Positions 23,961 through 63,924 of a DNA stretch of 64,000 bases are shown in pieces; the first letter of the stretch is position 1, and every line of letters begins with the position of its first letter. A model generated the notes under the pieces. It was not told the DNA's origin, did no database searches, and saw nothing but the letters and a program-made list of their open reading frames with translations. A program made the position numbers and the translations under genes. This stretch comes from an uncultured Magnetospirillum sp. (lineage in GTDB: Bacteria; Pseudomonadota; Alphaproteobacteria; Rhodospirillales; Magnetospirillaceae). The stretch covers positions 62,001-126,000 of the forward strand of contig NZ_CAINTR010000008.1 of NCBI RefSeq assembly GCF_903853455.1, given 5' to 3'.

Positions 23961-23976
23961 TGCCCCCTGCCCCTCT

Positions 23977-28162: not shown

Positions 28163-28197
28163 GGTCTCCATGACGGCGGCACGAGTTATACCAAAAT

Positions 28198-28221: not shown

Positions 28222-28223
28222 CG

Positions 28224-28282: not shown

Positions 28283-28335
28283 GGCCCCTTGGGCCTAACC
28301 AAGCCGCCATGAGTCCCGCTCATCACGGCTTGGTG

Positions 28336-31679: not shown

Positions 31680-31744
31680 GGGGCAGGGTTCCTATTGCAA
31701 CATCAGCCGGATCTGGACGGATGCGAGGCCGGTCATGCCGCCCC

Positions 31745-33353: not shown

Positions 33354-33405
33354 GCTATAGCCCGTTTTTCCGATCGCGGTCAATGCCAGCGTTCAATTCG
33401 TGAAC
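33354..33405 (-). promoter_or_regulatory. Promoter P4 with adjacent near-match operator
   Basis: On the minus strand TTGACC (33383-33378) and TATAGC (33359-33354) are 18 bp apart, the same spacing as P1-P3. An inverted repeat one base from perfect, GTTCAA-TTC-GTGAAC, lies at 33391-33405, just upstream of the -35 instead of over it. It would serve the nucleotidyltransferase-kinase operon starting at 33319. It lies in the last codons of the gene at 33355-35091, so the repeat could be chance. Confidence 0.5.
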
Positions 33406-47616: not shown

Positions 47617-47906
47617 GCGGCAAGCCGCTCCAAAATCAGGTCGGCCAGGGCGGCGGGGCTGCGCAGCCCGCCGGCGTCCTCGCCGAAATCGCTGTCGTCC
47701 AGCAGGCCGATCTCGGCACCGGCCAGAGTGGAAACCCGGCTCTCCACCGCCAGGATCAGCGTCACCAGCGCCAGCGAATCCAGGGCGCCGCCCTCGCCCG
47801 CCAGCAGCAGGTCGGGGGTCTTGGCCAGTTGCTCGGTCTCGGAGCGCAGGCCGTTCACCACGTCGATCGCCTGATAAACGATGTCCAGCGCGGTCGCCCT
47901 ATCCAT
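47613..47906 (-). CDS. Acyl carrier protein
   Basis: A 97-residue carrier protein from ATG 47906 (GAGG six bases upstream). The phosphopantetheine site is GGALDSLALVTLI (D-S-L) near residue 45, followed by an acidic helix and a C-terminal LADLILERLA helix. It carries the acyl group made by FkbH and the MaoC-ketoreductase. It is the first gene after promoter P2 and ATGA-coupled to FkbH. Confidence 0.88.
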   Translation of the reverse strand: MDRATALDIVYQAIDVVNGLRSETEQLAKTPDLLLAGEGGALDSLALVTLILAVESRVSTLAGAEIGLLDDSDFGEDAGGLRSPAALADLILERLAA

Positions 47907-47954: not shown

Positions 47955-47984
47955 CTTATAGCCCGTTCACCGGATGAACGTCAA
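47955..47984 (-). promoter_or_regulatory. Promoter P2 with inverted-repeat operator
   Basis: Minus strand: -35 TTGACG (47984-47979), 18-bp spacer, -10 TATAAG (47960-47955). The inverted repeat GTTCAC-CGG-ATGAAC occupies 47965-47979, at the same position as in P1 and P3. The inferred start point is near 47948, about 40 bp before the ACP start. It overlaps the last codons of the methyltransferase upstream. Confidence 0.75.
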
Positions 47985-48835
47985 GCCGGGGCGCCGCTTT
48001 TGCCGGCGGGCGTCTTGACCGCCTCGGCGAAGACCGACCACTGGGGATGGCCGGTGTCGAAGCCGACGATGCGGCCCAGGGAGACCACATGCTCCAGGCC
48101 GAGGAAGTTGCCCTCGCCCCGCATTTCGGGCACCTGGCTGCCTTGCGGCCCGGTGCGGATCACCTGGGTGAAGCCGGCCGCCTTCAGCATGCGCTCCAGC
48201 TTGGGATAGTTGAACCAGTTGATGTGGTTGCCGCCATTGGCGATCTGGGTCTCGCGCGGCACCAGCCCGGTGTATTTGTCGGCGAAATCGTCCTTGGACA
48301 GGGACTGGAGGTCGGCGCGGACCTCCTCCAGCGGCGTCTGGCCGGCCATGCCGGTGGCGAAGGCGCGCAGGAAGGCCCATTCGATCTGGTCGAGCTTGTA
48401 GCGCTGATACTTGAACACCTCCATGTCGCGGCGGAAATAGGCGTCGTAGAGGATGTCGAAATCGGGCATGGACAGCCGCACCACCCCACCCGGCGCCAGA
48501 CAGCGATACAGCTCGGCGAAGATATGGTCGCAATATTCCTGGGGAATATGCTCCAGGGTGTGGGCCGAGTAGAAATACCGCACCGAGCCGTCGGCGAACG
48601 GCAGGGGGTCGTGGGTCATCAGGTTGACGTTGAAATCGACGTAGTCGAGCTTGTAGGGGTAGGACCCGGTCTTGTAATCCAGGCAGGTCCAGCCGGGACG
48701 GCAGAAATAGCCGCCGCCGATGTTGACGCGAAGCCCATCCTTGGGCGTTCCCGCCAGCTTCTTGGCCAGCAGCAGGATGGGCAGCAGGATCTTGTGCTCG
48801 ACCACCAGCCGCAGATACCGCAAGAAACCCGCCAT
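47981..48835 (-). CDS. SAM-dependent methyltransferase (type 11)
   Basis: A 284-residue enzyme with an N-terminal hydrophobic patch (HKILLPILLLAKKL) that could touch the membrane. The SAM region is VNIGGGYFCRPGW, an altered motif I, followed by DPLPFADGSVRYFYSAHTLEHI, YRCLAPGGVVRLSMPDFD and KLERMLKAAGFTQV. ATG 48835 has AGGAGAG upstream. It ends the operon led by the regulator; promoter P2 begins in its last codons. With the FkbH/ACP genes next door, O-methylation of a glyceryl group is one option. Confidence 0.82.
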   Translation of the reverse strand: MAGFLRYLRLVVEHKILLPILLLAKKLAGTPKDGLRVNIGGGYFCRPGWTCLDYKTGSYPYKLDYVDFNVNLMTHDPLPFADGSVRYFYSAHTLEHIPQEYCDHIFAELYRCLAPGGVVRLSMPDFDILYDAYFRRDMEVFKYQRYKLDQIEWAFLRAFATGMAGQTPLEEVRADLQSLSKDDFADKYTGLVPRETQIANGGNHINWFNYPKLERMLKAAGFTQVIRTGPQGSQVPEMRGEGNFLGLEHVVSLGRIVGFDTGHPQWSVFAEAVKTPAGKSGAPA

Positions 48836-48875
48836 TCGTTCTCTCCTGTCCAGGCGACCGGATATAACACAAGCC

Positions 48876-50672
48876 CTATTGGTTCAGCACCCGCCAAACC
48901 GCCGCCGAAGCGTTGGGAATGCGGCTGAAATCGCACATATGGTCGAGGATGGCGTCGCGGTCGGGCACCTCGCCCGCCGCCAGCGCCGCCGCCAGCGCCT
49001 CGGCGTCGGCGTAAAGCGGCACCGGTCCCATCACCGCCGGATCGACGCTGTTGGGCTGCGGCACCAGGGCGTAATAGGGCTTGCCCGCCGCCAGGGTCTC
49101 CACCAGCGAACCGGAATCCGCCGGCCCGATCACCAGATCGGCCCAGACCATCTGCTGCGGCACCGAGCCGCCGGTGACGATCTCCAGGCCCAGGTCGAAT
49201 TCGCGGTCGAGGGCGGCCCAGGCCGCCGGCCCGAAGGCGGGATGGACCTTGAGGCGGATCTCCTGGTAGCCCAGCCGGCGCAGCATGCGGGTGACGTCGA
49301 CGATGTTGGAATAGGTGGTGCCGCGCAGCATGCGGAAATTGTAGATGGAACTGGTGCCGGGCAGCAGCAGCACCCGCCCCCGGCCCACCGGCGGCAGGCT
49401 CAGCGCCGCCGATCCCCGCCGCACCGGGTCGAGGCCGGGATAGCCGACGCGGGCGGTGGGCAGCTTTGAGCCGATGCGGCGCAGCCAGTCCTCCTGCGAC
49501 GGCCCCCAGGACAGCAGCCGCGACAGTTTGGGCGGGCCGCAACGGTCGCCGCAGCGGATGTCGTAGGCGCAGTCATGCACGAACATGCCGTTCAGCAGCT
49601 CGTCGGCGGGAATGCCGGCGGCATGGGCGGCCTCGACGATCAGCCGGCCCGAAGTGTTGGTGGCGTCGCCCACCACCACCCGGGCCACCCGATGGCGGGT
49701 CAGCAGGGCGCGGTAGGACTTGGCCTCGGCGGCGAAGTCCAGCAGCCGGCCGTTGGTGAGGATCTTCTCCTCCACATGGGCGCGCCGCGCGGCCTCCACC
49801 GGCGCGGCCGGCGGATGAGTCCGCCAATGCTCCCTTAAGTCTGCCGCCCCGGCCTCCAGCCGCCGCACCTCCTCCCTGGTGAGGGACAGACGCGGCAGGC
49901 TGGCCAGGGTGGCGCCGCGCCGCAGGCAATCCCGCAGGAAGGACAGGGACTTGGGCGAACGCTGGGCGATCAGCACGGTTCCCGCCGGCCCGCCCGGCCA
50001 GGACTCCAGCAACCCTTGCTCCATCAACGGGTTGAGGAAGAACAGCACGCCGCCGGTCTTGCGCCGGAACGGCCGCAGCAGGCGAAACGCCAGATCGGTG
50101 AGGTCGGCCAGCAGATTGCGCAGAACCGCCTTGGCCCCCTTGGGACGCAGCGGCGCGCCGATCCCCAGCACGTCGTGGAAATGGCGGATGTCGTCGGGCG
50201 GGTCGAGGCGATCCACCACCGTCAGCCCATGACTCGCCGCCAGGGCCTGGACCAGGATGCGCTTCTGGGTGTCGCCGACCTGGCCGTATTCGCCGCGCAG
50301 GTCGTAGAGCACCAGTTCCTTGGGGGCGTAAACGCGACAGAAGCCGTCCAGCGCATGCCACAGCCGCTGGAATCCCAGCACCGACAGCTCCACCTCGCGA
50401 TTGAGCGCCTTGGCGGTGGACATGCCATCCAGCAGACCGACCTCGCCGCCGGCCTCGATCATCCATTCGCCGTGGCGCAGCAGCACGTCGGCGGGCGGGT
50501 CGTAATCGCCCAACATGGCGTCCACATGGCGGACGGCGACGCCCTCCCGCTCCAACTGGCGGCAGGTCAGCCAATCGGTACTCACCACCAGCGCGCCGGG
50601 GCCGGCATTACGGGCGGCGTCGAGATGGCGGGGATGGCTGATCAGCACCAGCCGGGTGACGGGCTCGGCCAT
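48876..50672 (-). CDS. GT-B-like glycosyltransferase, candidate nonulosonate transferase
   Basis: A 598-residue cytoplasmic protein of no named family that I recognise. The C-terminal 250 residues look like GT-B: VLLLPGTSSIYNFRML, EIRLKVHPAFGP, and ADLVIGPADSGSLVETLAAGKPYY, the last being the donor-phosphate loop. A mid-protein VVVGDATNTSGRLIVEAAHAAG and CAYDIRCGD follow an N-terminal Rossmann-like half. It starts in TGATG overlap with the CMP-sugar synthetase stop. Position right after legF makes it a candidate enzyme using the CMP-nonulosonate; this is inference. Confidence 0.68.
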   Translation of the reverse strand: MAEPVTRLVLISHPRHLDAARNAGPGALVVSTDWLTCRQLEREGVAVRHVDAMLGDYDPPADVLLRHGEWMIEAGGEVGLLDGMSTAKALNREVELSVLGFQRLWHALDGFCRVYAPKELVLYDLRGEYGQVGDTQKRILVQALAASHGLTVVDRLDPPDDIRHFHDVLGIGAPLRPKGAKAVLRNLLADLTDLAFRLLRPFRRKTGGVLFFLNPLMEQGLLESWPGGPAGTVLIAQRSPKSLSFLRDCLRRGATLASLPRLSLTREEVRRLEAGAADLREHWRTHPPAAPVEAARRAHVEEKILTNGRLLDFAAEAKSYRALLTRHRVARVVVGDATNTSGRLIVEAAHAAGIPADELLNGMFVHDCAYDIRCGDRCGPPKLSRLLSWGPSQEDWLRRIGSKLPTARVGYPGLDPVRRGSAALSLPPVGRGRVLLLPGTSSIYNFRMLRGTTYSNIVDVTRMLRRLGYQEIRLKVHPAFGPAAWAALDREFDLGLEIVTGGSVPQQMVWADLVIGPADSGSLVETLAAGKPYYALVPQPNSVDPAVMGPVPLYADAEALAAALAAGEVPDRDAILDHMCDFSRIPNASAAVWRVLNQ

Positions 50673-51361
50673 CAGCCCCGATCCGCCAGCAGCAGCTCGG
50701 CCAGCCGGAAGTCCAGGACGCTGTCGATGTCCACCGAACGTTCGGCCGGCATGACATAGCCGACCGTGCCCTCGGCCATGAAGGTCAGCGACTGACGGAA
50801 CCAGGGAATCTTGGCGACGAACACCGCCCCGTTGGCGGCGAAGGCGGTGGGCAGGTCCTGACGCCGGGTGACGCCGCCGGACTCCAGCAGCCGCGACAGC
50901 CGGCCCTGCTCGTCCATGCGGTACATCCAGTAGGGCGACTTGGCCGCCTCGGTCACCCCGACGCAGGCGGGAGCGTCGGCGGCGACGCAGGCGGCCAGCG
51001 CCGCTTCCAGGTCCTCGGCCAGCCGCAGCGGCGAGGTGGGCTGCAGCAGCACCAGCAGGTCGAACGCCTCGTCCAGGGCGTCCAGGGCATGGATCACCAC
51101 CGGCGCCGAGGGGGTGTCGTCGCGGGCCAGCTCGGGCGGACGCACGAAGGGAGCCTCGCAGCCAGCCGCCACCGCCGCCGCGATGATGGCGGGGTCGTCG
51201 GACGAGATCACCACCCGGTCGATAGAGGGCGCCGCCAGGGCCTGCTCCACGCTCCAGGCCACCAGCGGCTTGCCACCCAGCGGCCGGATGTTCTTGCCCG
51301 GCAGCCCCTTGGAGCCGCCGCGCGCGGTGATCAGGGCGAGAACCTTGCGTCCGGCGATCAT
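50672..51361 (-). CDS. legF: CMP-nonulosonate (legionaminate/sialate) synthetase
   Basis: A 229-residue acylneuraminate cytidylyltransferase. The CTP motif is LITARGGSKGLPGKNIRPLGGKPL; LLVLLQPTSPLRLAEDL and the C-terminal RSVDIDSVLDFRLAELLL are standard. It activates a nonulosonic acid with CTP in the cytoplasm. LegI, LegG and LegC homologues are in the same operon. Distinguishing legionaminate from neuraminate or pseudaminate specificity is by context only. Confidence 0.87.
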   Translation of the reverse strand: MIAGRKVLALITARGGSKGLPGKNIRPLGGKPLVAWSVEQALAAPSIDRVVISSDDPAIIAAAVAAGCEAPFVRPPELARDDTPSAPVVIHALDALDEAFDLLVLLQPTSPLRLAEDLEAALAACVAADAPACVGVTEAAKSPYWMYRMDEQGRLSRLLESGGVTRRQDLPTAFAANGAVFVAKIPWFRQSLTFMAEGTVGYVMPAERSVDIDSVLDFRLAELLLADRG

Positions 51362-51368
51362 AATTCTC

Positions 51369-52037
51369 TCATTTCCGGCACGTGATCAGCCATTCGCGCA
51401 CCTCCCTGGTGCGGTTGCGGTCGGTGCGGATGACGTAATCCAGGGCGATGTCGGGGAAGACGCCGTAGAGGCCGGGGATCTCCTCCTCGGCGGTCAGGCG
51501 GATCAGGCCATATCCCTTGTTGAACGGGCCGTCGGGGATTTCCAGGAAGGTGTTGGGCTCGCCCTCCATCCTGCGGCCGGTGGCCTCGCCGCTGGTGCCG
51601 GTCATGAAGGCCTTGGAGAACAGCAGCCCGCCGGGTTTGAGCACCCGGTGGGCCTCGGCGACGATGCGGCGCGAATCCGCCAGCGTGTTGGCGTAGATGC
51701 ATTCGATGTCCAGCACGCAGTCGAAGCTGGCATCGGCGTAGGGCAGCTCCATGGCGTCGCCCTGGTCGAGGCGCGCCGCCAATCCCCGCTCGGCCAGCCG
51801 CTCGGCGGCGCGGTCCAGCCCGACCCGGCTGCCGTCCAACCCGGTGGCGTCGAAACCCTCGCCGGCCAGGAACACCATGTTGGCGCCGGCGCCGCAGCCG
51901 ATTTCGAGGAATTTCACCGCCTTGCGATCAGGGGCACCGAAATAGGTGCGCCCGATGAACCGCACCAGCTCCTCCGGGGGATATTTCCCCCAGTCCTTGG
52001 CGCTGAATACGTCGTCCCAGCCAGGATTCCACATCAT
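51369..52037 (-). CDS. Class I SAM-dependent methyltransferase
   Basis: A 222-residue methyltransferase. Motif I is KFLEIGCGAGANMVFLA, followed by ATGLDGSRVGLDRA, FDCVLDIECIYANT and HRVLKPGGLLFSKAF. It starts at ATG 52037 with ATGA overlap to the FemAB-like gene and lies 7 bp before legF. Its place inside the nonulosonate operon suggests methylation of the nonulosonic acid or its acyl group. Substrate unknown. Confidence 0.85.
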   Translation of the reverse strand: MMWNPGWDDVFSAKDWGKYPPEELVRFIGRTYFGAPDRKAVKFLEIGCGAGANMVFLAGEGFDATGLDGSRVGLDRAAERLAERGLAARLDQGDAMELPYADASFDCVLDIECIYANTLADSRRIVAEAHRVLKPGGLLFSKAFMTGTSGEATGRRMEGEPNTFLEIPDGPFNKGYGLIRLTAEEEIPGLYGVFPDIALDYVIRTDRNRTREVREWLITCRK

Positions 52038-53080
52038 CGATACCTGTATTTGAGAAAGCGTCCGCCGAACCGTTCGACCAGATCGGGATGGTCTTGCGCC
52101 CAGCCGGCGCAGACCGAATCATAGGCGGCACGGTCGATCATCACCTTGCCGAAGCGGAAGGTGGTCCGCTCGGGCGAATAGCCCGCCTTGAAGCGCAGCA
52201 GGCTGTCGTCGGCAGCGGCGGTGCGGCCGCCGCCATAATGCAGCCGCTCACGCCCACCGCCCAGCAGGTCCATGGTGACGGCGTGGCGCAGCAGGTTGTT
52301 GGGGCCGAACGCCGTGTAGGCCTTCAGCGACGACGACAGATGGTAATGGGCCCAGCGCGCCGACAGCAGGATCAAGGCGCCGCCCAGCACTTCCCCCTCC
52401 CGCTCGGCCAGGTAAACCCGCCACGAATTCGCCCCCAGGCTGGGGATGGCGCGGAAATAGTCGTCGCCGAAGAAGTAATCCTCGTGGGCATCCAACTCGC
52501 GCATATGGGTCTCGTAGAGACGGGCGAAGACCTCCAGCGCCGCCTGATCGGCGCGCCCGGTCACCACCACCCCGGCCTGCTCGGCCTTACGCACCTTGCG
52601 CCGGGTCTCGGAGGCATAACCGGCCAGCACGGTGTCGCGGTCCTTGGACAGGGTCAGGGCCACGGTCTGGCGGTCGTCGATCACCGTCACCGCCCCATGC
52701 GCCGCCCAGCGGTGGTTGTCCAGCAGCGGGTGAAAGCGGATGAAGCCGCAGACGACGCCACGGGCGCGGCAATGCGCCACCAGTGCCTCCCACGCCGCCG
52801 CCAGAAACGCCGCGTCGTCGCTGGTGGACAGCGGCCCGCCATAGCCGTAGGCGGTCTCGAAGTCGAACAGCGGCCGGTCGGACTGGCTTTCGATCTCCCG
52901 CACCAGCCAGGGCAGCAGGAAGGTCTCGCCGCCCTGCTCGAACACGAACAGTTCGTTGACGTCGCCCGGCCGGGCGTAGAGGGCGGCGTAGGCGGGACGG
53001 AAATAGACGTCGGCGAGACCGCCCAATCCATCGAGCAGGCGGTTCCAGGACCCGTGATCTTGGATCAGGCGGACGCTCAC
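52034..53080 (-). CDS. FemAB/BioF2-like GNAT acyltransferase
   Basis: About 348 residues from GTG 53080 (GTGA overlap with legI); ATG 53095 is an alternative. The fold is the two-GNAT FemAB type: VYFRPAYAALYA, FIRFHPLLDNHRWAAHG, RRKVRKAEQAGVVV (a typical FemAB arginine/lysine stretch), LGGALILLSARWAHYHLSSS and LLRFKAGYSP. Such proteins make amide bonds, often from aminoacyl-tRNA or acyl-CoA donors, to amino sugars or peptides. In this operon it could N-acylate the nonulosonate precursor. Confidence 0.8.
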   Translation of the reverse strand: MSVRLIQDHGSWNRLLDGLGGLADVYFRPAYAALYARPGDVNELFVFEQGGETFLLPWLVREIESQSDRPLFDFETAYGYGGPLSTSDDAAFLAAAWEALVAHCRARGVVCGFIRFHPLLDNHRWAAHGAVTVIDDRQTVALTLSKDRDTVLAGYASETRRKVRKAEQAGVVVTGRADQAALEVFARLYETHMRELDAHEDYFFGDDYFRAIPSLGANSWRVYLAEREGEVLGGALILLSARWAHYHLSSSLKAYTAFGPNNLLRHAVTMDLLGGGRERLHYGGGRTAAADDSLLRFKAGYSPERTTFRFGKVMIDRAAYDSVCAGWAQDHPDLVERFGGRFLKYRYR

Positions 53081-54111
53081 CGCAGGTCGGCCCATTGCAG
53101 CGGCTCGTCCTCGGCCAGGGCACGGTTGACGGTGAAGCCGGCCAGCCGGTCCAGGTCTTCGGGCTCGATGCCGCCGCCGGGGCGCTTGCAGGTCAGCATC
53201 TCAGGCCGCAGCACGGTGCCGGCGGCGATGGGTACCAGGGCCACCACGCCGCGGCGGATGCCGTTCATGTTGGCGATCTCGGCCTTGGTCGGGCGCTTGA
53301 CGCCGTCGCCCAGCATGGCCTCGATGCGGCGGATGGAGGCCACATAGGCAGCCAGCCCGGCCGGGTCCAGCGAGGCCTGATGGTCGGGACCGGGCAGCGA
53401 GCGGTCGAGGGTGAAGTGCTTTTCCACGATCGCCGCCCCCATGGCCACGGCGGCCAGCGAGGCTTCCGAGCCCAGGGAATGGTCGGACAGGCCCACCGGC
53501 AGGCCGAAGGCATGGCCCAGCGTCACCATGGCGCGCAGGTTGATCTGGTCGTCGGGGGCGGGATATTCCGAAGTGCAGTGCAGCAGGGCCAACGGCCCGA
53601 CGCCGCCTTTGCGCAGCGCCGCCACCGCCTTTTCCACCTCGCCCAGGGTGGACAGGCCGGTGGACAGGATGGCGGGACGGCCGGTACGGCCGATAGCCTC
53701 CAGGTACTGAAGATGGGTGACCTCGGTGGAGCCGATCTTGACGATGGGCATGTCCAGCTCGCCCACCAGGAAGGCCAGGCTGTCGAAGCCGTCGGGGGTG
53801 GACAGGAACAGGATGTTCCGGCTCTCGGCATGGGCCTTCAGCTCGCGGAACGCCGGATAGGGCAGGGCCAGCCGGCAGGACAGCTCGTAGCGGCTTTCCG
53901 CCGCGTCGGTGGTGGTCTCCAGATAGTCCACCTTGTAGGCGAACTTGCCGGTGATCTCGCCCGGTCGCCAGGTCTGGAACTTGACCGCGTCGGCCTTGGC
54001 CTCGGCGGCCACGTCGATCAACCGCTTGGCGCGGGCGATGTCGCCGTCATGGTTGACGCCGGCTTCGGCGATGATGAAGGCACGGCCGGCAGTGGCATAG
54101 GGCAGGGTCAT
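53077..54111 (-). CDS. legI: Legionaminate/N-acetylneuraminate synthase
   Basis: A 344-residue NeuB-family enzyme that condenses a six-carbon amino sugar with phosphoenolpyruvate. The TIM barrel has IIAEAGVNHDGDI, VKFQTW, FLSTPDGFDSLAFL, VKIGSTEV, HCTSEYPAP and GLSDHSLG, with the metal residues in KHFTLDRSLPGPDH. The C-terminal SAF/antifreeze-like domain starts at RRGVVALVPIAAGTVL. It is ATGA-coupled to legG. The family also contains NeuB and PseI; the LegC partner and PtmE homologue favour legionaminic acid. Confidence 0.88.
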   Translation of the reverse strand: MTLPYATAGRAFIIAEAGVNHDGDIARAKRLIDVAAEAKADAVKFQTWRPGEITGKFAYKVDYLETTTDAAESRYELSCRLALPYPAFRELKAHAESRNILFLSTPDGFDSLAFLVGELDMPIVKIGSTEVTHLQYLEAIGRTGRPAILSTGLSTLGEVEKAVAALRKGGVGPLALLHCTSEYPAPDDQINLRAMVTLGHAFGLPVGLSDHSLGSEASLAAVAMGAAIVEKHFTLDRSLPGPDHQASLDPAGLAAYVASIRRIEAMLGDGVKRPTKAEIANMNGIRRGVVALVPIAAGTVLRPEMLTCKRPGGGIEPEDLDRLAGFTVNRALAEDEPLQWADLR

Positions 54112-55277
54112 GGCGAGGGGGTATCCACGAAGCTCTTGCGGATCAGACCGTCGAGCGGATGGGTGGCGAGGATGTCGCGGATGCGCTCCGAGGCATGGCC
54201 GTCGCCGAAGGGGTTGACCAGCCCGGCCAGTCCGGCGCGAAACCCGGGCGACAGCAGCCGGCGCAGAGCGGCGGCGATGGCGGCGGCTTCGGTGGGGCAG
54301 TCGATGATGGAGGCGGCGCGCAACCGGCCTTTCTGGCGGTCGCCGATATTGACGGTGCCGATGCCGAAGCTGGGCACCTCGATCAGGCCGGAGGAGGAAT
54401 TGCCGACCACGCCGGAGACCAGCGCCAGGGCCGACAGATAGCCCTGATGGCCCAGCGACTTGACCGCCACGGCACGGCCAGGGCGCGTCGCCACGAAAGC
54501 CTCCACGGCGGCGGCGATGGCGCGGCCGCCGGCATCGGCATTGACCCCGGTGAAGATCAGCCGGACGTCGTCCTCGATCCCGGCCAGGGCGGCCAGCAGC
54601 TCGGCCACCTGACGCTCGGGGGCCAGGGCCGACAGGGTCTCGGGATGGAAGGTGACCAGCAGCGAGCGCTGGCCCAGGTCCAGCCCCAGCCGCGCCTCCA
54701 GCTCGGCGCGCGGCAGACGCTGGCCGTCGCGGATGGCGTCCAGCCCGGTGGAGCCCACCACGAACACCCGCTCCGGCGCCTCGCCCATCTGGACGATGCG
54801 GCGGCCATAGGCCTCGATGGCGGTGAAATGGAGGTGGGCCAGCTTGGTGATGGCGTGGCGGATGGCATCGTCCACCGCGCCTTCGGTCAACTGTCCGCCG
54901 GCGATATGGGCCAACGGCAGGCGCAGCGCCATGGCGGCGCTGGCGGCACCCAGCATCTCGTAGCGGTCGCCGAACACCAGGACGAGATCGGGCGTGAGGC
55001 GGGCGAAGGCCTCGGCCAGGCCCATGGTGGCCAGGGCCAGCGACTTGGCCATGCCGAGGCCGCTGTCGGAGGCCAGCACGATCTCCACCCGCTCGGCGAT
55101 GGCCACGCCCTCGGCCTCGATCTCGGTGACCGTCATGCCGAATTCGGGAGCAAGGTGAGTGCCGGTGACCACCACCAGCGGCTCGGTCCGCCCGTCCTCG
55201 GCCAGCAGCCGGATCAGCCGCGACAGCAGGCCGTATTCGGCCCGCGACCCGGTGACAATGGCGATCCGGCGCTTCAT
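54108..55277 (-). CDS. legG: UDP/GDP-sugar 2-epimerase, hydrolysing (LegG/NeuC-type)
   Basis: A 389-residue GT-B-fold epimerase that releases UDP (or GDP) while inverting C-2, giving the substrate of LegI. Seen are IVTGSRAEYGLLSRLI, VFGDRYEMLGAASAA, HIAGGQLTEGAVDDAIRHAITKLAHLHF, LVTFHPETLS and GNSSSGLIEVPSFG. Length and motifs match hydrolysing enzymes rather than the non-hydrolysing WecB type. It sits between legI and the AMP-ligase with ATGA overlaps. Confidence 0.88.
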   Translation of the reverse strand: MKRRIAIVTGSRAEYGLLSRLIRLLAEDGRTEPLVVVTGTHLAPEFGMTVTEIEAEGVAIAERVEIVLASDSGLGMAKSLALATMGLAEAFARLTPDLVLVFGDRYEMLGAASAAMALRLPLAHIAGGQLTEGAVDDAIRHAITKLAHLHFTAIEAYGRRIVQMGEAPERVFVVGSTGLDAIRDGQRLPRAELEARLGLDLGQRSLLVTFHPETLSALAPERQVAELLAALAGIEDDVRLIFTGVNADAGGRAIAAAVEAFVATRPGRAVAVKSLGHQGYLSALALVSGVVGNSSSGLIEVPSFGIGTVNIGDRQKGRLRAASIIDCPTEAAAIAAALRRLLSPGFRAGLAGLVNPFGDGHASERIRDILATHPLDGLIRKSFVDTPSP

Positions 55278-56632
55278 TCGAACGTCACGATACCGCGCAG
55301 GTCCATGCGCTGGTCCAGATAGCGGTGCTTGCCGATGCGGGTGCGCGGAATGTCGTCCACCAGCTGCACCTCGATGTGGAATCCGGCCAGGATGGCGCCG
55401 ATGCGCCGTTCCAGCAGGGCCTTGACCACCGCCGGATCGTCAGCGGCCAGTTCGGCCTCGGGCTGGATCAGGATGGTCAGCGCGCCGGCCTGCTCCTGGA
55501 TCACCCGGAACTCGCGGATGCCCTTCCAGTCCATGTCGTTGTAGTTGAACACCGCCGGGGCCAGCGGGGTGGGATGGCCGGCGGCGTCGATGACGAAGTC
55601 CTGGAAGCGGCCCTCGACCCCTTTCAGGATCTTGTAATGGCGACCGCAGGGGCAGTCCTGGCTGTCACCGAGATAGCCGATGTCGCCGGTGCGGTAGCGG
55701 ATCAGCGGCATGGTGGGATTGTTGAAGCCGGTCACCACCATCTCGCCGCGCCCGCCCGGCTCGGTGACGTCGCGGCCCTGCTCGTCCAGCAGTTCCACGA
55801 TCCCCACCTGGGGCAGGAAGTGCAGGGCGTCGGAGTGCTGGCAGGGAAAGCCGGCGGCGCAGGCCTCGGTGTGGCCGAAGATGTTGATCAGCCGGGCCTG
55901 GAAGGCGCGCTCGATCATGGTGCGCTGGCCGTCGGTCAGATATTCGCCGTCGCAGGCGATGGTGCGGATGGGCCGGATCTCCAGCCCGTCCTGCAGGATG
56001 TACTTGGCCAGCGGCAGGATGGAGGACGGCCGCGTGTGGATATAGCGCGGCGCGAAGGCGTTGATCTCGGCCACATAGGCCGGGGCGGTCTCGGCGGTGA
56101 TGTGGTAGCACGACATCACCAGCTTGCGGCCGTCCTCCACCCGCCAGTAGCGGTTCTCGGCCAGGATCTCGGGGGCGAGCTTGTCGCCGTAGAGCCGCAC
56201 CGAGCGCCAGTTGAAGACGTCGAGGCCAAACGTCTCCATGTAGTGGTTGGTGCAGGCCTTGTCGCGGGCCAGGAAGTCGTCGTCGTACCAGATGGTCAAG
56301 GGCGTGCCGGTGCTGCCGCCGGTGGTGCGGTGGCGCAAAGTGGCGCGGTCCGCGTTGTCGGCCAGGAAGGCGTCGGGATCGGCCTGGATCGCCCGCTTGT
56401 CGATGATGGGAAAGCGCTTGAGGTCGGCCAGGGTGACGATGTCGTCGGGTCCGAACCCGGCCGCCGCCATGGCGCGGCCATAGGCCGGCACCCTGGCATG
56501 GGCGTGGCGCACCAGCCGCCGCAGGGAATTCAGCTGGTACTCGTCCTGCTGCCGGCGCGACCAGAACTGGCTCTGCTCGAGGAAGATCCGGCGTTCGACG
56601 AAGATCGGATTGGAAAAAGGATCGGCGCTCAC
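55274..56632 (-). CDS. AMP-dependent ligase, CapK/phenylacetate-CoA ligase-like
   Basis: A 452-residue adenylate-forming enzyme from GTG 56632 (GTGA overlap with legC). The ATP loop is TGGSTGTPLTIWYDD near residue 100, followed by IACDGEYLTD, INIFGHTEACAAG, MPLIRYRTGDIGYL and a C-terminal cap IPRTRIGKHRYL. CapK-like proteins occur in polysaccharide clusters with uncertain roles. Here, in the middle of the nonulosonate operon with ACP and GNAT genes nearby, activation of an acyl group for N-acylation is plausible. Confidence 0.83.
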   Translation of the reverse strand: MSADPFSNPIFVERRIFLEQSQFWSRRQQDEYQLNSLRRLVRHAHARVPAYGRAMAAAGFGPDDIVTLADLKRFPIIDKRAIQADPDAFLADNADRATLRHRTTGGSTGTPLTIWYDDDFLARDKACTNHYMETFGLDVFNWRSVRLYGDKLAPEILAENRYWRVEDGRKLVMSCYHITAETAPAYVAEINAFAPRYIHTRPSSILPLAKYILQDGLEIRPIRTIACDGEYLTDGQRTMIERAFQARLINIFGHTEACAAGFPCQHSDALHFLPQVGIVELLDEQGRDVTEPGGRGEMVVTGFNNPTMPLIRYRTGDIGYLGDSQDCPCGRHYKILKGVEGRFQDFVIDAAGHPTPLAPAVFNYNDMDWKGIREFRVIQEQAGALTILIQPEAELAADDPAVVKALLERRIGAILAGFHIEVQLVDDIPRTRIGKHRYLDQRMDLRGIVTFE

Positions 56633-57798
56633 CGTTCGCCCTCCCCGGCAAGGCGTGGACTGGACGGAATGTTGATCAGCCGGGCGGCGACGCTGTCGGT
56701 CACCTTCAACTCCATGCGTGGGCAGTCGGCGTACATGGGCAGGTGGTGCATGGGAGTCCAGGCCGGCCGGCATTGCAGGCCGCGCTGGTTGGACAGGGTC
56801 AGCACCGGCTCCAGCAGGGCTTCGTTGCCCGGCTCCAGCAGCGCCACGTTGAGCCAGTAATTGCTGCGGCCGAAATCAGTCTCGACGAAGGCGCGGATGC
56901 CGGCCAGCGGCGCGAAGGCGGCATGATAGCGCCCGGCCAGCAACCGCTTGCGCTCGAGGAAACCGGGCAGCCGCTCCAACTGGGCGCAGCCGATGGCGGC
57001 GTTGACGTTGGGCAGGCGGTAGTTGTAGCCCACCATGTCGTGGCGGAATTCGAACGGATGGGGCTGCTTGGCGGTGGTGGTGAGGTGCTTGGCCCGCTTG
57101 GCCAGCTCGGCGTCGTTGGTGAGGATGGCGCCGCCGCCGCCGGTGGTGACGATCTTGTTGCCGTTGAAGCTGAGCGACGCCAGCTTGCCGTGATTACCGG
57201 TGTGGCGACCCTTGTAGGTGCTGCCCAGGCTTTCGGCGGCGTCCTCCACCAGCGGCAGGCCGAAGCGCTCGCACACCGCCACCAGCGGATCCAGATCCAC
57301 CGGATGGCCGAAGGTGTGCATGCAGACCACGGCGCGGATCGGCCGCCCGGTCAGGCGGTTGACGACACAGCCGTCGCCGGGACGGGCGATGTCGGCCAGA
57401 TAGTCCGCCAGCCGGGCCGGGTCGAGGCCCAGGGTCCGCTCCTCGATCTCGGCGAAATGGGGCGTGGCGCCGCAATAGGCCACGGCGTTGGCGGTGGCGA
57501 CGAAGGTCAGCGACGGGATGATCACCTCGTCGCCGGAACGCACCCCGGTCAGCAGCAGGCCGGCATGCAGGGCGGCGGTGCCGTTGACCACCGCAACCGC
57601 GAAGCCGGCGCCGGTAAACTCGGCCAGCATCTTTTCGAAGCGGTCCACATAGGCGCCTACGGTGGAGACCCATTCGGTGTCGAGGCATTCCTTGACATAG
57701 GTCCACTCGTTGCCGGCGATCTCGGGGGCGTGCAGCAGCGCCTTGCCGCCGGTGACGCTTTCGATGGCGGCGACCACCTGTTCGGCGGTAAGCGTCAT
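56629..57798 (-). CDS. legC: LegC-like PLP-dependent sugar aminotransferase
   Basis: A 389-residue DegT/DnrJ/EryC1/StrS-type enzyme from ATG 57798. It has AVVNGTAALHAGLLL, EVIIPSLTFVATANAVAYCGA, LVEDAAESLGSTYKGRHTG, the Schiff-base Lys in SLSFNGNKIVTTGGGGA, and MVGYNYRLPNVNAAIG. The N-terminal extension (EQVVAAIESVTG) and C-terminal INIPSS fit the LegC branch, which aminates C-4 of a UDP-4-keto-6-deoxy-HexNAc. The last residues PRLAGEGER look like read-through into an intergenic repeat. The matching LegB dehydratase is not in this window. Confidence 0.85.
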   Translation of the reverse strand: MTLTAEQVVAAIESVTGGKALLHAPEIAGNEWTYVKECLDTEWVSTVGAYVDRFEKMLAEFTGAGFAVAVVNGTAALHAGLLLTGVRSGDEVIIPSLTFVATANAVAYCGATPHFAEIEERTLGLDPARLADYLADIARPGDGCVVNRLTGRPIRAVVCMHTFGHPVDLDPLVAVCERFGLPLVEDAAESLGSTYKGRHTGNHGKLASLSFNGNKIVTTGGGGAILTNDAELAKRAKHLTTTAKQPHPFEFRHDMVGYNYRLPNVNAAIGCAQLERLPGFLERKRLLAGRYHAAFAPLAGIRAFVETDFGRSNYWLNVALLEPGNEALLEPVLTLSNQRGLQCRPAWTPMHHLPMYADCPRMELKVTDSVAARLINIPSSPRLAGEGER

Positions 57799-59816
57799 GC
57801 CCGCGCCTCCTTCTCCACCTGATAAAAGAACATGTCCGGCGAGGCGTATTCCGCCATCTTGCGCAGCGTCAGGTTGATGTTGTTCGAGCGGAACTGCTCG
57901 AACCGCGATCTGAGCGCGCTGCGCTGGGCATCCGCCAGCGTGAGGTGGTAGCTCACGGCGCCGGCATAATCGGCGATGGGATGGGTGTGGCCGTCCCGCT
58001 TCCACGCCAGCACGTCGTGGGACACCGCCAGCCGGCGTTCGTCGGCAAAGCCGCTCTCGTCGATGTCGATGCGGGCGGCGGCGGTGAAGCGCAGCACGTC
58101 GTCGAAACGGGCCAGCGCGTCGGGCCGGTCGGCCGCCAGTCCCCGGAACACCGTCCGCAGCATGGCCTCGAACGCGCCGGCGCAATGCAGCAGCAGCCGC
58201 GCGGTGTAGACGTAGTTGAGCTTGCCGTAGGAGCCGTCGCCCAGCTTGTCGAAATTCTCCGGCACCGACCAGAATTCGGCCAGTTCGTCGTAGGTGCCGA
58301 AGCGCTCGGTGTCCTGGTCGTGCTCGAAATCGGCCTTCAGCGCCGCCAACTCACCTTCGCCCTTGGGCCAGGCGGCGATGGCGGCCAGGGCGAAGTCCAC
58401 CGGATGAACGCCCGCCTCCTGGCGGACCAGCTGCATCAGGTCATGGTAATAGCCGCGCCCCCACATCATCTGGAGCAGGAAGTGGATGTAGCGGAACGAA
58501 CTCAGTTCCTCGAAGCTCATGGTCGAGGTGGCCAGCACGATCTCCTGGCCCTCGAACAGCTTGCGGCCGTCATAGATGCCGAAGGCGTTGTCATGCAGCC
58601 GCCAGCCGGTGCGCTTGAAATAGGCGGCGCGGGATTGGGCGCCCTCCATCTTGGTGCCGGGCAGGAGGTGGAGATTGTAGTTGAACACCTCGGCGCCGAT
58701 ATCCATCAGCGTCTTATTGGCATCGATATGGGTCTGCCAAGTCTCTTCCGGCAAGCCGACGATCAGCTCGGACACCATGCGGGTCTGGATGCCCTCGTCG
58801 GCGAGACGCCGGTTCAGCGTGATGACCTCGCCGATGGGCAGGTTCTTGCGCTCGATGGCCTTGAGGGTCGGCGGATGGAAACTCTGCATGGAAGCCCCCA
58901 CCTGCGACAATCCGCGCATCTGGCGCACCGCCTCGAACACCCGGTCGGGGCGGGTCTTGTTCCACTGGGCGTTGACCCGAAGCGGAAAGCCCTTGTCCTG
59001 GCTGCGCTCGTACAGGCGGGCCGCGAACAGGGCGTCGCGCTCCAGGATGCCGAAATTGGCGTCGCCGACGAACAGGCTGGTGGACTGGGTGCAGTGATCG
59101 GCGATGTAGTCGATCTCGGCCATCACCCGGGCCTCGCTGAAGCGGGCCAGCTTCTCGTTGCCGATGCCCCAGGCGCAGAAGGTGCAGCGATAGGGGCACG
59201 AGCGGTTGGTCTCGATGATCGGCGAAATGGGTTCTTCGAAGAACTCGTCCATCATGCCGTTGAGATAGGGCGACGGAATGACGTCGAGATCGTCCAGCGC
59301 CTTCAGCGACTCGCCCACATGGATGCGGCCACCGGCTCCCAGGTCGTTGACCAGACAGCCGGCCACCGGATCGCGGCGCAGCCGGACGGGATCGCCGCCC
59401 AGGTCGAGGAAGCGCCCCAGCAGCTCGGCGAAGCCGCGCTCGCCCTGGTTCAGCACGAAGGCGTCAAAATCGGGCGAACCGGCGAAGAACGGGGTGGCGC
59501 CCTCGGATGAAGCGTTCATGGAGGTGAAGATGGGGCCGCCACCCACCAGCAGCACCGCCGGATTGGCTTCGCGGGCGATCTCGGCGATCAGGCGGTTGAG
59601 GTTGACGTTCCACACATAGTGGGACAGGGCGACCACGTCCGGGCGTTCGGCCCGAATCGCCTCGATCATCCGCTCGGGACGCTTGAACAGCCGGATATCG
59701 AGGGGCTCGGTCAGCTGGGTGCGGGCGTAACCGGACACGAAGCCGATATTGATCGGCATGGTCCAGATGCCGATCTTGCCCCAGGTGTGAACCAGGTCCC
59801 CGAGAAAAACCTTCAT
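57795..59816 (-). CDS. B12-binding-type radical SAM protein
   Basis: A 673-residue enzyme with an N-terminal Rossmann part (about 1-150; NIGFVSGY, VVALSHYVWNVN, LLVGGGPIFTS) resembling cobalamin-binding domains but without a visible DxHxxG lower-ligand motif. The radical SAM core has CPYRCTFCAWG (CxxxCxxC) near residue 212, LFVGDANFGI and MVSELIVGLPEETWQTH. The C-terminal 250 residues are unassigned, mostly helical. It is the third gene of the regulator operon and ATGA-coupled to legC. It may rearrange or methylate a sugar. No named member is recognised. Confidence 0.82.
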   Translation of the reverse strand: MKVFLGDLVHTWGKIGIWTMPINIGFVSGYARTQLTEPLDIRLFKRPERMIEAIRAERPDVVALSHYVWNVNLNRLIAEIAREANPAVLLVGGGPIFTSMNASSEGATPFFAGSPDFDAFVLNQGERGFAELLGRFLDLGGDPVRLRRDPVAGCLVNDLGAGGRIHVGESLKALDDLDVIPSPYLNGMMDEFFEEPISPIIETNRSCPYRCTFCAWGIGNEKLARFSEARVMAEIDYIADHCTQSTSLFVGDANFGILERDALFAARLYERSQDKGFPLRVNAQWNKTRPDRVFEAVRQMRGLSQVGASMQSFHPPTLKAIERKNLPIGEVITLNRRLADEGIQTRMVSELIVGLPEETWQTHIDANKTLMDIGAEVFNYNLHLLPGTKMEGAQSRAAYFKRTGWRLHDNAFGIYDGRKLFEGQEIVLATSTMSFEELSSFRYIHFLLQMMWGRGYYHDLMQLVRQEAGVHPVDFALAAIAAWPKGEGELAALKADFEHDQDTERFGTYDELAEFWSVPENFDKLGDGSYGKLNYVYTARLLLHCAGAFEAMLRTVFRGLAADRPDALARFDDVLRFTAAARIDIDESGFADERRLAVSHDVLAWKRDGHTHPIADYAGAVSYHLTLADAQRSALRSRFEQFRSNNINLTLRKMAEYASPDMFFYQVEKEARA

Positions 59817-59819
59817 GGG

Positions 59820-60986
59820 CTATGCCTCTGCCGCCGGGTAATCGATGGCGTAGTTGCCGAAGAAGCTGGCCGGCTGCTCCACATTGCGGAACAGGCCCGA
59901 GCGCAGGGCGGCGATCAGCTCGGACACCCCGTCGTGGACGGTGTAGCGCGGCTGGAAGAACAGCCGCTCGCGGATCTTGGTGAAATCGACCCGGTAGTTG
60001 CGCGGGTCGCTGCCATGCTGCTGGTAGCCGACCTTGGCGTCGGGCAGCTGGGTCAGGATGGCGTCGACGATCATCTGCTTGGTGAAGTTGTTGACCTCGC
60101 CGCCGGCGTTGAACACCTCGAAGGCGACACGTTCGGGCTTGGCCTCCAGCACCCGGCGGATCACCTCGGAAAAGTCGCCCAGATGGCAATAGGGCCGCCA
60201 GGTATGGGCGTCGTAGACCACCAGTTCGTGCCCCAGATACATGGCGCGGGTGAACTCGGAGACGGTGAGGTCGAAGCGCATGCGGGGCGACAGGCCGAAG
60301 GCGGTGGCGAAGCGCAGCACCGTGGTCTGGTAGTCCACCCGGCCCTTGATGCCCAGCAACGCCGTCTCCATGGCCACCTTGGCCTTGGCGTAGAGCGACA
60401 GCGGCGACAGCTCGTAATTCTCGTCGGCCAGGGTGTCCTGGGGGATCAGGCCGTAATTGGAACAGGTGGAGACGAACACCACCCGGTTGAGGCCGCGGCC
60501 GTCGAGGCGGTCGATCAGGGCCAGCATGCCGTCGTGATTGATGCGCTGGGATTCGTTCGGGTACTTCTTGGTGATGGGGTCGCCCACCAACCCGGCCAGG
60601 ATCACCACGTCGGTGACGCCCTCCAGGCAGGCTTCCATGTGGTCGCGGTCGGCGTAGTCGCCTTGGACGAATTCATAGCCGGGGCGGCCGAGGAAGGGCA
60701 GCACGGTTAGCTGGTTGTGATAAAGCAGCAGATCCTGGCTGCGGACCCGGTAGCCCTGGCGCAGCAGTTGCTCGGTCAGCACGCTGCCGATATAGCCGGC
60801 GCCGCCGACGATCAGGACCAGCCGCTCCTCCAGGCCGCGCGGCGCCAGCACCGACTCCGCCACCCGCAGCGATTCCTCGAACAGCTCGACCTGATAGGCT
60901 TCGGGCAGGTGGGCGTTGTTGACGAAGGCCACCGTTTTGGCGCGTTCGAACTGCTGGTGGGACAGGCCCTTGCGGATGGCGGTCAT
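59820..60986 (-). CDS. NAD-dependent epimerase/dehydratase (extended SDR, N-terminally extended)
   Basis: A 388-residue SDR from ATG 60986 with GAGGGAGA upstream; the tracked 516-residue start is shadow of the regulator. About 55 extra residues (FERAKTVAFVNNAHLPEAYQ) precede LIVGGAGYIGSVLTEQLL. Catalytic marks are VSTCSNYGL and the YxxxK motif YAKAK; FNAGGEVNNFTKQ is in the substrate domain. It acts on a nucleotide sugar. It is the first enzyme gene after the regulator in the nonulosonate operon. I see no specific evidence that it is the LegB 4,6-dehydratase. Confidence 0.84.
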   Translation of the reverse strand: MTAIRKGLSHQQFERAKTVAFVNNAHLPEAYQVELFEESLRVAESVLAPRGLEERLVLIVGGAGYIGSVLTEQLLRQGYRVRSQDLLLYHNQLTVLPFLGRPGYEFVQGDYADRDHMEACLEGVTDVVILAGLVGDPITKKYPNESQRINHDGMLALIDRLDGRGLNRVVFVSTCSNYGLIPQDTLADENYELSPLSLYAKAKVAMETALLGIKGRVDYQTTVLRFATAFGLSPRMRFDLTVSEFTRAMYLGHELVVYDAHTWRPYCHLGDFSEVIRRVLEAKPERVAFEVFNAGGEVNNFTKQMIVDAILTQLPDAKVGYQQHGSDPRNYRVDFTKIRERLFFQPRYTVHDGVSELIAALRSGLFRNVEQPASFFGNYAIDYPAAEA

Positions 60987-61021: not shown

Positions 61022-61648
61022 TTAAGCCGTTTTTACGCCGATGGCGTCTTCGGATTGGCTGACAACGCACTGAACCTCGAGCAGGGGCAGCGGCAGCACC
61101 CGCTCGGGCGGCATCAGGCCGGCGAGGCGCTCCCAGGCGGCCTGCGGATTGGTCAGGTCGGCCAGGATCACCGCGTCGAGCCGGCCTTTGGCCGCCAGTT
61201 CGGCGGCGATGGCGGCGATGGGCCGCTCGGGGTTCACTTCCACCGGCCCTACCGTGTCGATGGGGAATTCGCGCGCCGCCAGGATGGCGATCTCGGCCAG
61301 GTCGCCGGTGCCGCACACCGCCACCCGCCGCCAGCCCTTGGCCTCGCAGATGCGGAAAACCCCCTCGCACTGGCCCTTGGCGTCGCGGAAGAACTGGAAG
61401 GAATAGGACAGGTAGCGGGCGACCAGGGCGCTTTTTTCCGCCAACCCGCTGGGCGTCAGGTAATAGGCGTAGCGGTTGGTCGGCACCGAGCTGACCTTGA
61501 CGTAACCCTTGCGGATGCAGCGGCGCAGATAGGAATTGGCCAAGCCCAAGGCGATGCCAAGCTCGTTGGCCAGCCGCCGCTGGGTGACGTTGGCGTCGGT
61601 CTGGATCAGCTTCAGCATGTCCAGCGTAAGGCGACCTTCCTTTTCCAT
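61022..61648 (-). CDS. Winged-helix transcriptional regulator (MarR/EPS-type), probable local regulator
   Basis: A 208-residue protein from ATG 61648, which follows TAGGAGCGGC. The winged helix is at about residues 6-60: LDMLKLIQTDANVTQRRLANELGIALGLANSYLRRCIRKGYVKV, then a YLTPSGLAEK wing, much like the EPS-associated MarR-type regulators. Residues about 95-200 form a Rossmann-like domain (VAVCGTGDLAEIAIL, AVILADLTNP) that may sense a nucleotide sugar or cofactor. Its own promoter P3 carries the inverted repeat also found at P1 and P2, so it is the best candidate binder. Autoregulation and repression are inferred from operator position. Confidence 0.85.
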   Translation of the reverse strand: MEKEGRLTLDMLKLIQTDANVTQRRLANELGIALGLANSYLRRCIRKGYVKVSSVPTNRYAYYLTPSGLAEKSALVARYLSYSFQFFRDAKGQCEGVFRICEAKGWRRVAVCGTGDLAEIAILAAREFPIDTVGPVEVNPERPIAAIAAELAAKGRLDAVILADLTNPQAAWERLAGLMPPERVLPLPLLEVQCVVSQSEDAIGVKTA

Positions 61649-61674
61649 GCCGCTCCTAGGGAAAACCGTATGGG

Positions 61675-61704
61675 CTTCTACCGCGTTCATGCCATGAACG
61701 TCAA
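61675..61704 (-). promoter_or_regulatory. Promoter P3 with perfect inverted-repeat operator (regulator gene)
   Basis: Minus strand: -35 TTGACG (61704-61699), 18-bp spacer, -10 TAGAAG (61680-61675). A perfect inverted repeat GTTCAT-GCC-ATGAAC covers 61685-61699. The inferred start point near 61668 leaves a 20-base leader before the regulator ATG. The site lies between the regulator and the divergent bi-domain dehydrogenase and could affect both. Confidence 0.78.
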
Positions 61705-61761
61705 GCTGGGCCTAACGTCTGGTTCGTGACAGAGGGAAAAATCCGGGTTAAGAAGAACGCC

Positions 61762-63924
61762 ATGAAACAGGTCATCCAAAGTGCCAAATCCGGCAAGCTG
61801 AGCTTGCGCGAAGTCCCGGAACCCCGCGTGCGGTCGGGCCATCTGCTGGTGGCGACGCGCGCCTCGCTGATCAGCGCCGGCACCGAGCGTCTGGTCATCG
61901 ACTTCGCCCGCAAGAGCCTCGCCGCCAAGGCCTCGGCGCGGCCCGACCTGGTGCGCAAGGTGGTCGACAAGGCCCGGCGCGACGGCATCGTCTCCACCTT
62001 CAAGGCGGTGATGGCCCGGCTCGACGAGCCGCTGCCGCTGGGCTATTCCGCCGCCGGCCGGGTGGTGGCGGTGGGCAACGGCCTGGAGGGCGCCTTCGCC
62101 GTCGGCCAGCGGGTCGCCATGGCCGGGGCCGGCCTGGCCAACCATGCCGAACTCAACGTGGTGCCGCGCAACCTCGCCGTCGCCATTCCCGACGGAATCG
62201 CCGACGAGGAGGCCGCCTTCGGCACCGTCGGCTCCATCGCCCTGGCGGGAGTCCGCACCCTGGGCAGCCAGTTGGGCGACGTGGTGGCGGTGCTGGGCGT
62301 CGGCCTGATCGGCCAGATGGCGGTTCAACTGCTGAGTCTGGCCGGCGCGCGGGTCGTCGCCCTCGATATGAATCCGCAACGATTGGCCCTGGCCAAGGCC
62401 ATGGGGGCCGAGCTGACCTGGAGCCTGGGCGAGCCCGGCCTGCCCGAGGCGGTTGCCGCCCTGACCGGCGGGGTGGGCTGCGATTCGGTGCTGATCGCGG
62501 CGGCCACCGATTCGTCGGAGCCGCTGGCCTTGGCCGCCGAGCTGGCCCGCGACCGGGCGCGGGTGGTGCTGGTGGGCAAGACCGGCACCGAATTCGACTA
62601 CGCCGCCTATATGAAGAAGGAGCTGACCCTGACGGTGTCACGCTCCTACGGCCCCGGCCGCTATGACGAGGATTTCGAGGGGCGCGGCGTCAAGTATCCG
62701 GTCGGCTGGGTCCGCTGGACCGAGACCGAGAATCTGCGGGAAGTGGTCCGCCTGATGAGCCCCGGCCTGACCCGGCGCCTCGACGTGGGCGCCCTGATCA
62801 CCCACCGCTTCGCCTTCGAGCAGGCCGAAAGCGCCTATGAGCTGGTCACCGGCGGCACCACCCCCCATCTCGGCGTGGTGCTGCGCTACGACGACACCGC
62901 CAAGGCCGCCCCGGTCACCGCCTTCCCCGCTCCCAAGACGGCGGCCGGCACCTGTGTGCTGGGGGTGATCGGCGCCGGCAACTTCGCCCGCACCGTGCTG
63001 CTGCCCGAACTGGCCCGCATCCCCAAGCTGGAGATGCGCACCATCTGCACCCAGCGCGGCGCCACCGCCGAGCATGGCCAGCAGACCTTCGGCTTCGCCC
63101 ATGCCACCACCGACCTGGACGAGGTCCTGAACGACCCCGCCATCAACGCGGTGCTGGTGGCCACCCGCCACGGCAACCACGCCGAAATGACCGCCCGGGT
63201 GCTGGCGGCGGGCAAGTCGGTTCTGGTGGAAAAGCCGCTGGCCCTGGACCGCGCCCAGTTGGAACAGGTGCGGACCGCCCGCCAGGGCTCGGCCGGCTTC
63301 TTCCTGGTCGGCTTCAACCGCCGCTTCGCCCCTATGACCGTCAAGGCCAAGGCCCATCTCGCCCGCCATGCCGGCCCCAAGGTGCTGGTGCTACGGGTCA
63401 ACGCCGGGGCGCTGCCGGCGGAAAGCTGGGTCAACGCGGCGGAGGAAGGCGGCGGCCGCATCCTGGGCGAGCTGTGCCATTTCGTCGATCTCGCCCGCGC
63501 CCTGATCGGCGCTCCCATCGCCACCGTCCAGGCCGACGCCGCCGCCGTCACCCATGGCGGCTGCGACGATCTGGCGGTGTCGCTGACCTTCACCGACGGC
63601 TCGCTGGCCACCATCGTCTACACCGCCCTGGGCGACACGTCGCACAGCAAGGAACGCTTCGAGTGTTTCGCTGGCGGAACGGTTGTCACCCTCGACAATT
63701 TCCTGACCCTCGCGGTCACCTCGGGCGGCCGCACCAAGGTCGAGAAGTCGCTCGGCCAGGACAAGGGCCACCGCGCCGAGCTGGAGGCCTTCGTCACCGC
63801 CGTGGCCCATGGCGGTCCCGCGCCGGCCGACGAGGCCGAGTTGATCGAAACCAGCCTTGCCACCATCGCCGTGCTGGAGAGTCTGCGCGACGGGCGGCGA
63901 GTCCATCTGACCGAGGCGCCATGA
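61762..63924 (+). CDS. Bi-domain oxidoreductase: MDR dehydrogenase fused to Gfo/Idh/MocA
   Basis: A 720-residue fusion from ATG 61762; the tracked start at 61726 is a GTG 12 codons earlier. Residues about 1-380 are an MDR domain lacking the structural-zinc cysteine set (GYSAAGRVVAVG, AVLGVGLIGQMAVQLL). Residues about 395-720 are a Gfo/Idh/MocA domain with VIGAGNFARTVLLPEL and VLVEKPLALDRAQ. Such bi-domain proteins are recurrent in polysaccharide clusters, so this is a known architecture, not a frameshift artefact. It is divergent from the regulator and overlaps the next gene as ATGA. Confidence 0.88.
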   Translation: MKQVIQSAKSGKLSLREVPEPRVRSGHLLVATRASLISAGTERLVIDFARKSLAAKASARPDLVRKVVDKARRDGIVSTFKAVMARLDEPLPLGYSAAGRVVAVGNGLEGAFAVGQRVAMAGAGLANHAELNVVPRNLAVAIPDGIADEEAAFGTVGSIALAGVRTLGSQLGDVVAVLGVGLIGQMAVQLLSLAGARVVALDMNPQRLALAKAMGAELTWSLGEPGLPEAVAALTGGVGCDSVLIAAATDSSEPLALAAELARDRARVVLVGKTGTEFDYAAYMKKELTLTVSRSYGPGRYDEDFEGRGVKYPVGWVRWTETENLREVVRLMSPGLTRRLDVGALITHRFAFEQAESAYELVTGGTTPHLGVVLRYDDTAKAAPVTAFPAPKTAAGTCVLGVIGAGNFARTVLLPELARIPKLEMRTICTQRGATAEHGQQTFGFAHATTDLDEVLNDPAINAVLVATRHGNHAEMTARVLAAGKSVLVEKPLALDRAQLEQVRTARQGSAGFFLVGFNRRFAPMTVKAKAHLARHAGPKVLVLRVNAGALPAESWVNAAEEGGGRILGELCHFVDLARALIGAPIATVQADAAAVTHGGCDDLAVSLTFTDGSLATIVYTALGDTSHSKERFECFAGGTVVTLDNFLTLAVTSGGRTKVEKSLGQDKGHRAELEAFVTAVAHGGPAPADEAELIETSLATIAVLESLRDGRRVHLTEAP

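Follow-up and report, generated by a model that had tools for sequence, protein, structure and literature searches.

Surface-glycan clusters, including those for nonulosonic (sialic-like) acids, are widespread, but the switches that control them have seldom been worked out beyond a handful of models. A MarR-type protein encoded in a polysaccharide cluster, ExpG/WggR (MucS) of Sinorhizobium meliloti, binds short palindromes at a number of promoters, its own region among them (PMC1403797, PMC10458429), and specialised NusG paralogs serve capsule operons (PMC7593976). For the family MarR_EPS (TIGR04176), we found no published operator or function in the literature searched, and the same literature (on MarR_EPS, the motif and Magnetospirillum regulators) held no description of the operator reported here.

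We analysed a window of 64,000 nucleotides from an uncultured Magnetospirillum sp. and computed the operator sites, their register to promoters, the conservation of operator with regulator and the conservation of the target at one promoter, that of a radical SAM operon. The window encodes a winged-helix regulator that very probably controls, by way of a 15-base palindrome, the operon it belongs to and three sugar/acyl-coat operons nearby. As the palindrome precedes regulators of this kind in many Proteobacteria, it is very probably part of a widespread switch for surface-glycan genes.

A palindrome at four neighbouring promoters

A pattern scan for GTTCAY-N3-RTGAAC returned three exact matches in the window, at precisely the positions given in a preliminary description of this DNA, whereas 100 shuffles of the window gave a mean of 0.01. 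The 5.18 Mb assembly as a whole holds no further exact copy, and the reversed pattern had 0 exact matches in it; the many scattered copies that would have told against the preliminary description are thus absent. The chance of three genome copies falling inside 34.8 kb is about 1e-4. With the -35 attached, the operator (TTGACGTTCAYNNNRTGAAC) again had 3 exact genome matches, the next best place having 2 mismatches. A scoring matrix built from 99 ortholog sites, all from other genomes, ranked four places in the window (61685, 26919, 33391 and 47965) at 20.4-24.8 and the next at 10.2; scores of at least 18 are expected in random sequence at 0.1 per window. The fourth place, 33391-33405, had been missed in the preliminary description, which listed three promoters. 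A relaxed pattern gave 5 genome matches, 4 of them within a 35-kb stretch of the window, and its reversed control gave nine genome-wide, so that site 4 is singled out by its position and matrix score and not by the relaxed pattern alone. The sites and the minus-strand promoters they accompany are as follows.

26919-26933: operator 1, GTTCACGTTGTGAAC, in the spacer of the radical SAM operon promoter; matrix score 23.5
47965-47979: operator 2, GTTCACCGGATGAAC, in the spacer of the acyl operon promoter; matrix score 20.4
61685-61699: operator 3, GTTCATGCCATGAAC, in the spacer of the regulator's own promoter; matrix score 24.8
33391-33405: operator 4, GTTCAATTCGTGAAC, upstream of the HldE-like/transketolase operon promoter; matrix score 21.1
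Radical SAM operon promoter, minus strand: -35 TTGACG 26938-26933, 18 bp, -10 TATAGC 26914-26909
Acyl operon promoter, minus strand: -35 TTGACG 47984-47979, 18 bp, -10 TATAAG 47960-47955
61675-61704, minus strand: regulator/nonulosonate promoter, -35 TTGACG 61704-61699, 18 bp, -10 TAGAAG 61680-61675
Operator 4 operon promoter, minus strand: -35 TTGACC 33383-33378, 18 bp, -10 TATAGC 33359-33354

Operators 1-3 each share the last base of the minus-strand TTGACG and sit inside the 18-bp spacer. The common register to a TTGACG-18 bp-TATA-like promoter that had been proposed for these sites thus holds at all three, although the third -10, TAGAAG, is weaker than 'TATA-like' implies. The centre of operator 4 lies 17 bp upstream of the centre of its -35. 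The sixth base of operator 4 is A, as in several orthologs, and at 26910-26933 operator 1 coincides with the 3' end of the upstream minus-strand reading frame.

Because TTGACGTTCA is common to all three promoters with exact sites, they might be copies of one duplicated promoter cassette, or the palindromes might be functionless products of chance. We give this reading almost no credence: the shuffle expectation speaks against chance, and the N3 core and the flanks differ among the sites while the half-sites are kept, which speaks against a copied cassette.

A divergent zinc-dehydrogenase/Gfo-Idh fusion (61726-63924, plus strand) starts about 60-80 bases from operator 3 and may share it; no sigma-70-like promoter for this gene was found on the plus strand near operator 3.

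A two-domain relative of MarR_EPS

The gene next to operator 3 encodes the candidate reader of the palindrome.

61022-61648, minus strand: regulator, 208 aa, with a winged HTH, a long helix and a Rossmann-like C-terminal domain

The start at 61648 is taken as the right one because a longer, 222-aa frame would start upstream of the -10. The regulator matched HTH_24 (PF13412; 40.2 against a gathering score of 21.9), fell short of MarR_2 of the Pfam MarR superfamily (18 bits against 27) and matched TIGR04176 over residues 21-99 of the 222-aa frame with 61.9 bits (E 5e-17), below the cut-off of 88. The profile match and the alignment both place its winged helix with that of TIGR04176, and its gene is sited with surface-polysaccharide genes, as expected of the family. 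Its length and Rossmann-like domain depart from the family's short single-domain layout (about 105 positions). By these comparisons the regulator is a variant of MarR_EPS-type proteins, related but failing the family score and domain layout. No further homolog was found in this genome; in another genome (G031; L027 / G031:C93), a second, stop-interrupted copy adjoins the intact one.

An AlphaFold model gave the Rossmann-like half a pLDDT of about 90 (residues 100-190) and the winged-helix part, with a six-sequence alignment, a low-confidence 40-58. A conserved stretch in the C-terminal half, G..DLAEIA..CA, suggests a bound nucleotide-type metabolite. A PDB sequence search with the regulator had no match, and Foldseek with the model returned nothing at E<=0.001, its best matches being generic alpha/beta folds only, so that no particular ligand can be named.

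Predicted operons at the four sites

Genes were assigned from Pfam, NCBIfam or their translations, and the operon extents given are predictions. All are on the minus strand.

47981-60986: rest of the regulator/nonulosonate operon, after the regulator
59820-60986: SDR dehydratase/epimerase
57795-59816: B12 radical SAM enzyme, KedN5-like, below cut-off
56629-57822: DegT-type aminotransferase, in frame, assigned from its translation
55274-56773: AMP-binding enzyme
54108-55277: NeuC-type epimerase
53077-54111: NeuB
52034-53095: GNAT/FemAB
51369-52037: methyltransferase
50672-51361: cytidylyltransferase
48876-50672: protein without assignment
47981-48835: methyltransferase
41486-47906: acyl operon
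47613-47906: small ORF, the ACP of the preliminary description, with no Pfam match
45967-47616: FkbH
43569-45125: MaoC-like
42550-43572: polysaccharide deacetylase
41486-42553: nucleotidyltransferase
26910-33319: operator 4 operon, including genes without assignment, to 26910
31745-33319: HldE-like PfkB plus cytidylyltransferase
29259-30215 and 28336-29310: transketolase halves
21861-26849: radical SAM/ABC/MBOAT operon
25782-26849: radical SAM/SPASM
23977-25785: ABC exporter
23298-24029: methyltransferase
21861-23279: MBOAT

These contents indicate nonulosonate synthesis, acyl assembly (FkbH, MaoC-like), methylation, O-acylation (MBOAT) and ABC export, and the presence of a B12-dependent radical SAM enzyme among the nonulosonate genes may point to an unusually C-methylated sugar. 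The earlier idea that nonulosonate, acyl and export genes would be coordinated fits the operons as annotated, with the addition of the operator 4 operon, which was not in the earlier list and whose gene order is homologous to that in three other genomes (G038, G039 and G047).

The operator is conserved at regulator loci

We scanned 350 upstream bases and the first codons at 60 distinct ortholog loci. The palindrome was exact at 40, had one mismatch at 19 and two at 1, so that in 59/60 it lies, with at most one mismatch, before the start codon or across it; loss of the site at loci that keep the regulator, which had been named beforehand as a check, was not seen. Neither the reversed pattern nor equal stretches of gene body at these loci gave a match at one mismatch or fewer. 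The offsets from the gene vary and the flanks are unrelated, so the site is not just conserved DNA, and the persistence of the half-sites at other offsets amid diverged flanks contradicts both chance and a copied cassette. The palindrome also precedes homologs whose bins carry the labels Gammaproteobacteria and Nitrospira (L007, L008), and it was found at one mismatch or fewer at 11/13 canonical short TIGR04176 loci. One family of the class has proteins of about 700 aa whose N terminus scores near the TIGR04176 cut-off (L122-L127, L129); these were considered as relatives and set aside, having no palindrome nearby, and they perhaps have another operator or function.

The commonest layout in relatives is TTGAC, operator, -10 and a second operator. 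The two operators are 22-25 bp apart in 36 of 48 spaced pairs, and both lie inside the polymerase footprint. This genome has the first operator only, with no second operator at the start site.

Site and regulator occur together

Homologs of the regulator were found in 18/55 genomes of the family and 82/385 genomes drawn from the class. Within the family, the exact site was present in 15/18 genomes with the regulator versus 6/37 without (Fisher 2e-6), and in the class sample in 49/66 versus 8/33 (Fisher 2e-6). The 33 class genomes come from order- and class-level rows, family rows being left out, and absence of a homolog in them was judged by P0001 or, in part, by TIGR04176 only. As the reversed pattern matches about 7 of these 33, the 8/33 is near background.

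These counts also bear on whether an unrelated regulator such as LexA reads the palindrome, the nearby winged-helix gene being coincidental. The GTTC half-site and the 7-bp gap do resemble a LexA box; the alphaproteobacterial box, however, is a direct repeat, GTTC-N7-GTTC, and the sites here are inverted, GTTC-N7-GAAC. We consider a LexA-like reader highly improbable, since the site tracks the winged-helix regulator across families, is absent from most genomes without it and lies at the regulator's own promoter in nearly every ortholog locus.

At the radical SAM gene the site is confined to genomes with the regulator

The same-gene conservation test covered operator 1, at the radical SAM promoter. 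Orthologs of this radical SAM gene were found in 10 other genomes of the genus. In G048, G049 and G043, which have the regulator and in which the gene is the first of its unit, the palindrome lies directly before it, as in G000; G048 and G049 keep the TTGACG-operator-TAT arrangement, with regulator and target on different contigs. No palindrome precedes the gene in G040 (89% identity), G044 or G046, all without the regulator, and within the genus a site at the radical SAM promoter was found only in genomes with the regulator. In G040, the gene seems to come straight after its upstream neighbour. Four regulator-bearing genomes (G034, G038, G039 and G047) have no site directly upstream of the gene. 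In the last three it lies inside a longer cluster, with a site at or near the start of that cluster's transketolase gene, and G034 has a second site in its nonulosonate region.

Taken at the level of sequence, the proposal that the 208-residue winged-helix protein reads the palindrome is strongly supported by phylogenetic footprinting at ortholog loci, by the co-occurrence of site and regulator and by their co-loss at the radical SAM promoter.

Elsewhere, genes next to non-self sites often encode PseB/CapD-type dehydratases (three genomes), RmlD, NeuB or a nucleotidyltransferase, with a UDP-glucose dehydrogenase/oxidoreductase pair as a further neighbour. In three regulator-bearing genomes the palindrome lies directly before Na+/H+ exchanger genes (L166, L167, L168, L170, L171), a recurrent non-glycan target, so in other genera the regulon extends beyond glycan genes.

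A probable autoregulated repressor

We think it highly likely that the 208-aa protein is autoregulated and controls the four neighbouring minus-strand operons by binding the palindrome as a dimer; most likely it represses them. From the findings above we infer binding, dimerisation, repression and a ligand in the following way. A dimer would occupy GTTCAY-N3-RTGAAC with one winged helix per half-site, and its regulon would comprise its own nonulosonate operon and the ACP/FkbH acyl, radical SAM/ABC/MBOAT and HldE-like/transketolase operons. Since the operator takes up the -35/-10 spacer of three promoters, RNA polymerase should be shut out there once the protein is bound. A pathway metabolite, for example a nucleotide sugar or cofactor, is probably what the Rossmann-like domain senses, and it would release the protein. 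Overlap of the operator with the regulator's own core promoter is a feature of autoregulated repressors, and the position of both tandem operators of relatives under RNA polymerase fits repression with autoregulation.

The same protein and site might instead serve mainly in activation, in the manner of ExpG/WggR or of a MerR-like activator that binds the spacer, which we regard as unlikely. A spacer of 18 bp is close to optimal, so that at the three of four promoters with the operator between -35 and -10 no spacer correction would be needed, and the tandem sites in relatives cover both the spacer and the start site. Operator 4 does lie upstream of a -35, where activators bind too, and ExpG, itself MarR-type, activates an exopolysaccharide cluster by way of short palindromes at several of its promoters (PMC1403797). 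On the positions of the sites, repression seems the likelier sign of control.

Comparison with known systems

The regulator shares with MarR_EPS a homologous winged helix, with the pattern LGI(S/A)LG..N..L+..I.KG.VK, and a palindrome upstream of the gene; the family's name points to exopolysaccharide loci, as here. Unlike the canonical proteins, it has a wing four residues shorter and, in place of their short charged C-terminal tail, a Rossmann-like domain of about 100 residues. Its likeness to ExpG, by description and not by sequence or operator letters, lies in one palindrome at several promoters of a cluster; unlike the regulator proposed here, ExpG/WggR is described mainly as an activator working with PhoB/MucR.

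As with the RfaH/NusG paralogs that accompany polysaccharide operons, the regulator in relatives would often gate an antiterminator-type gene: the gene directly after it encodes a NusG-family (RfaH-like) protein of about 167 aa in 34/52 ortholog loci (L048-L107). This genome, in contrast, has one NusG-family gene only, on another contig, and none adjoining the regulator. That the two genes recur as a pair suggests that glycan clusters couple the control of initiation to antitermination. On balance, we favour the view that the two branches of this winged-helix family, the short-tailed one and the one bearing a Rossmann-like sensor, have in common a single ancestral 15-bp operator, present throughout Proteobacteria and in at least one Nitrospira bin, and form a general metabolite-sensing gate on surface-glycan clusters that often acts through an adjacent RfaH-like antiterminator. 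A family-wide operator would make the regulator's set of operons predictable from sequence in many genomes, and would make a named but uncharacterised family, MarR_EPS with its two-domain relatives, testable.
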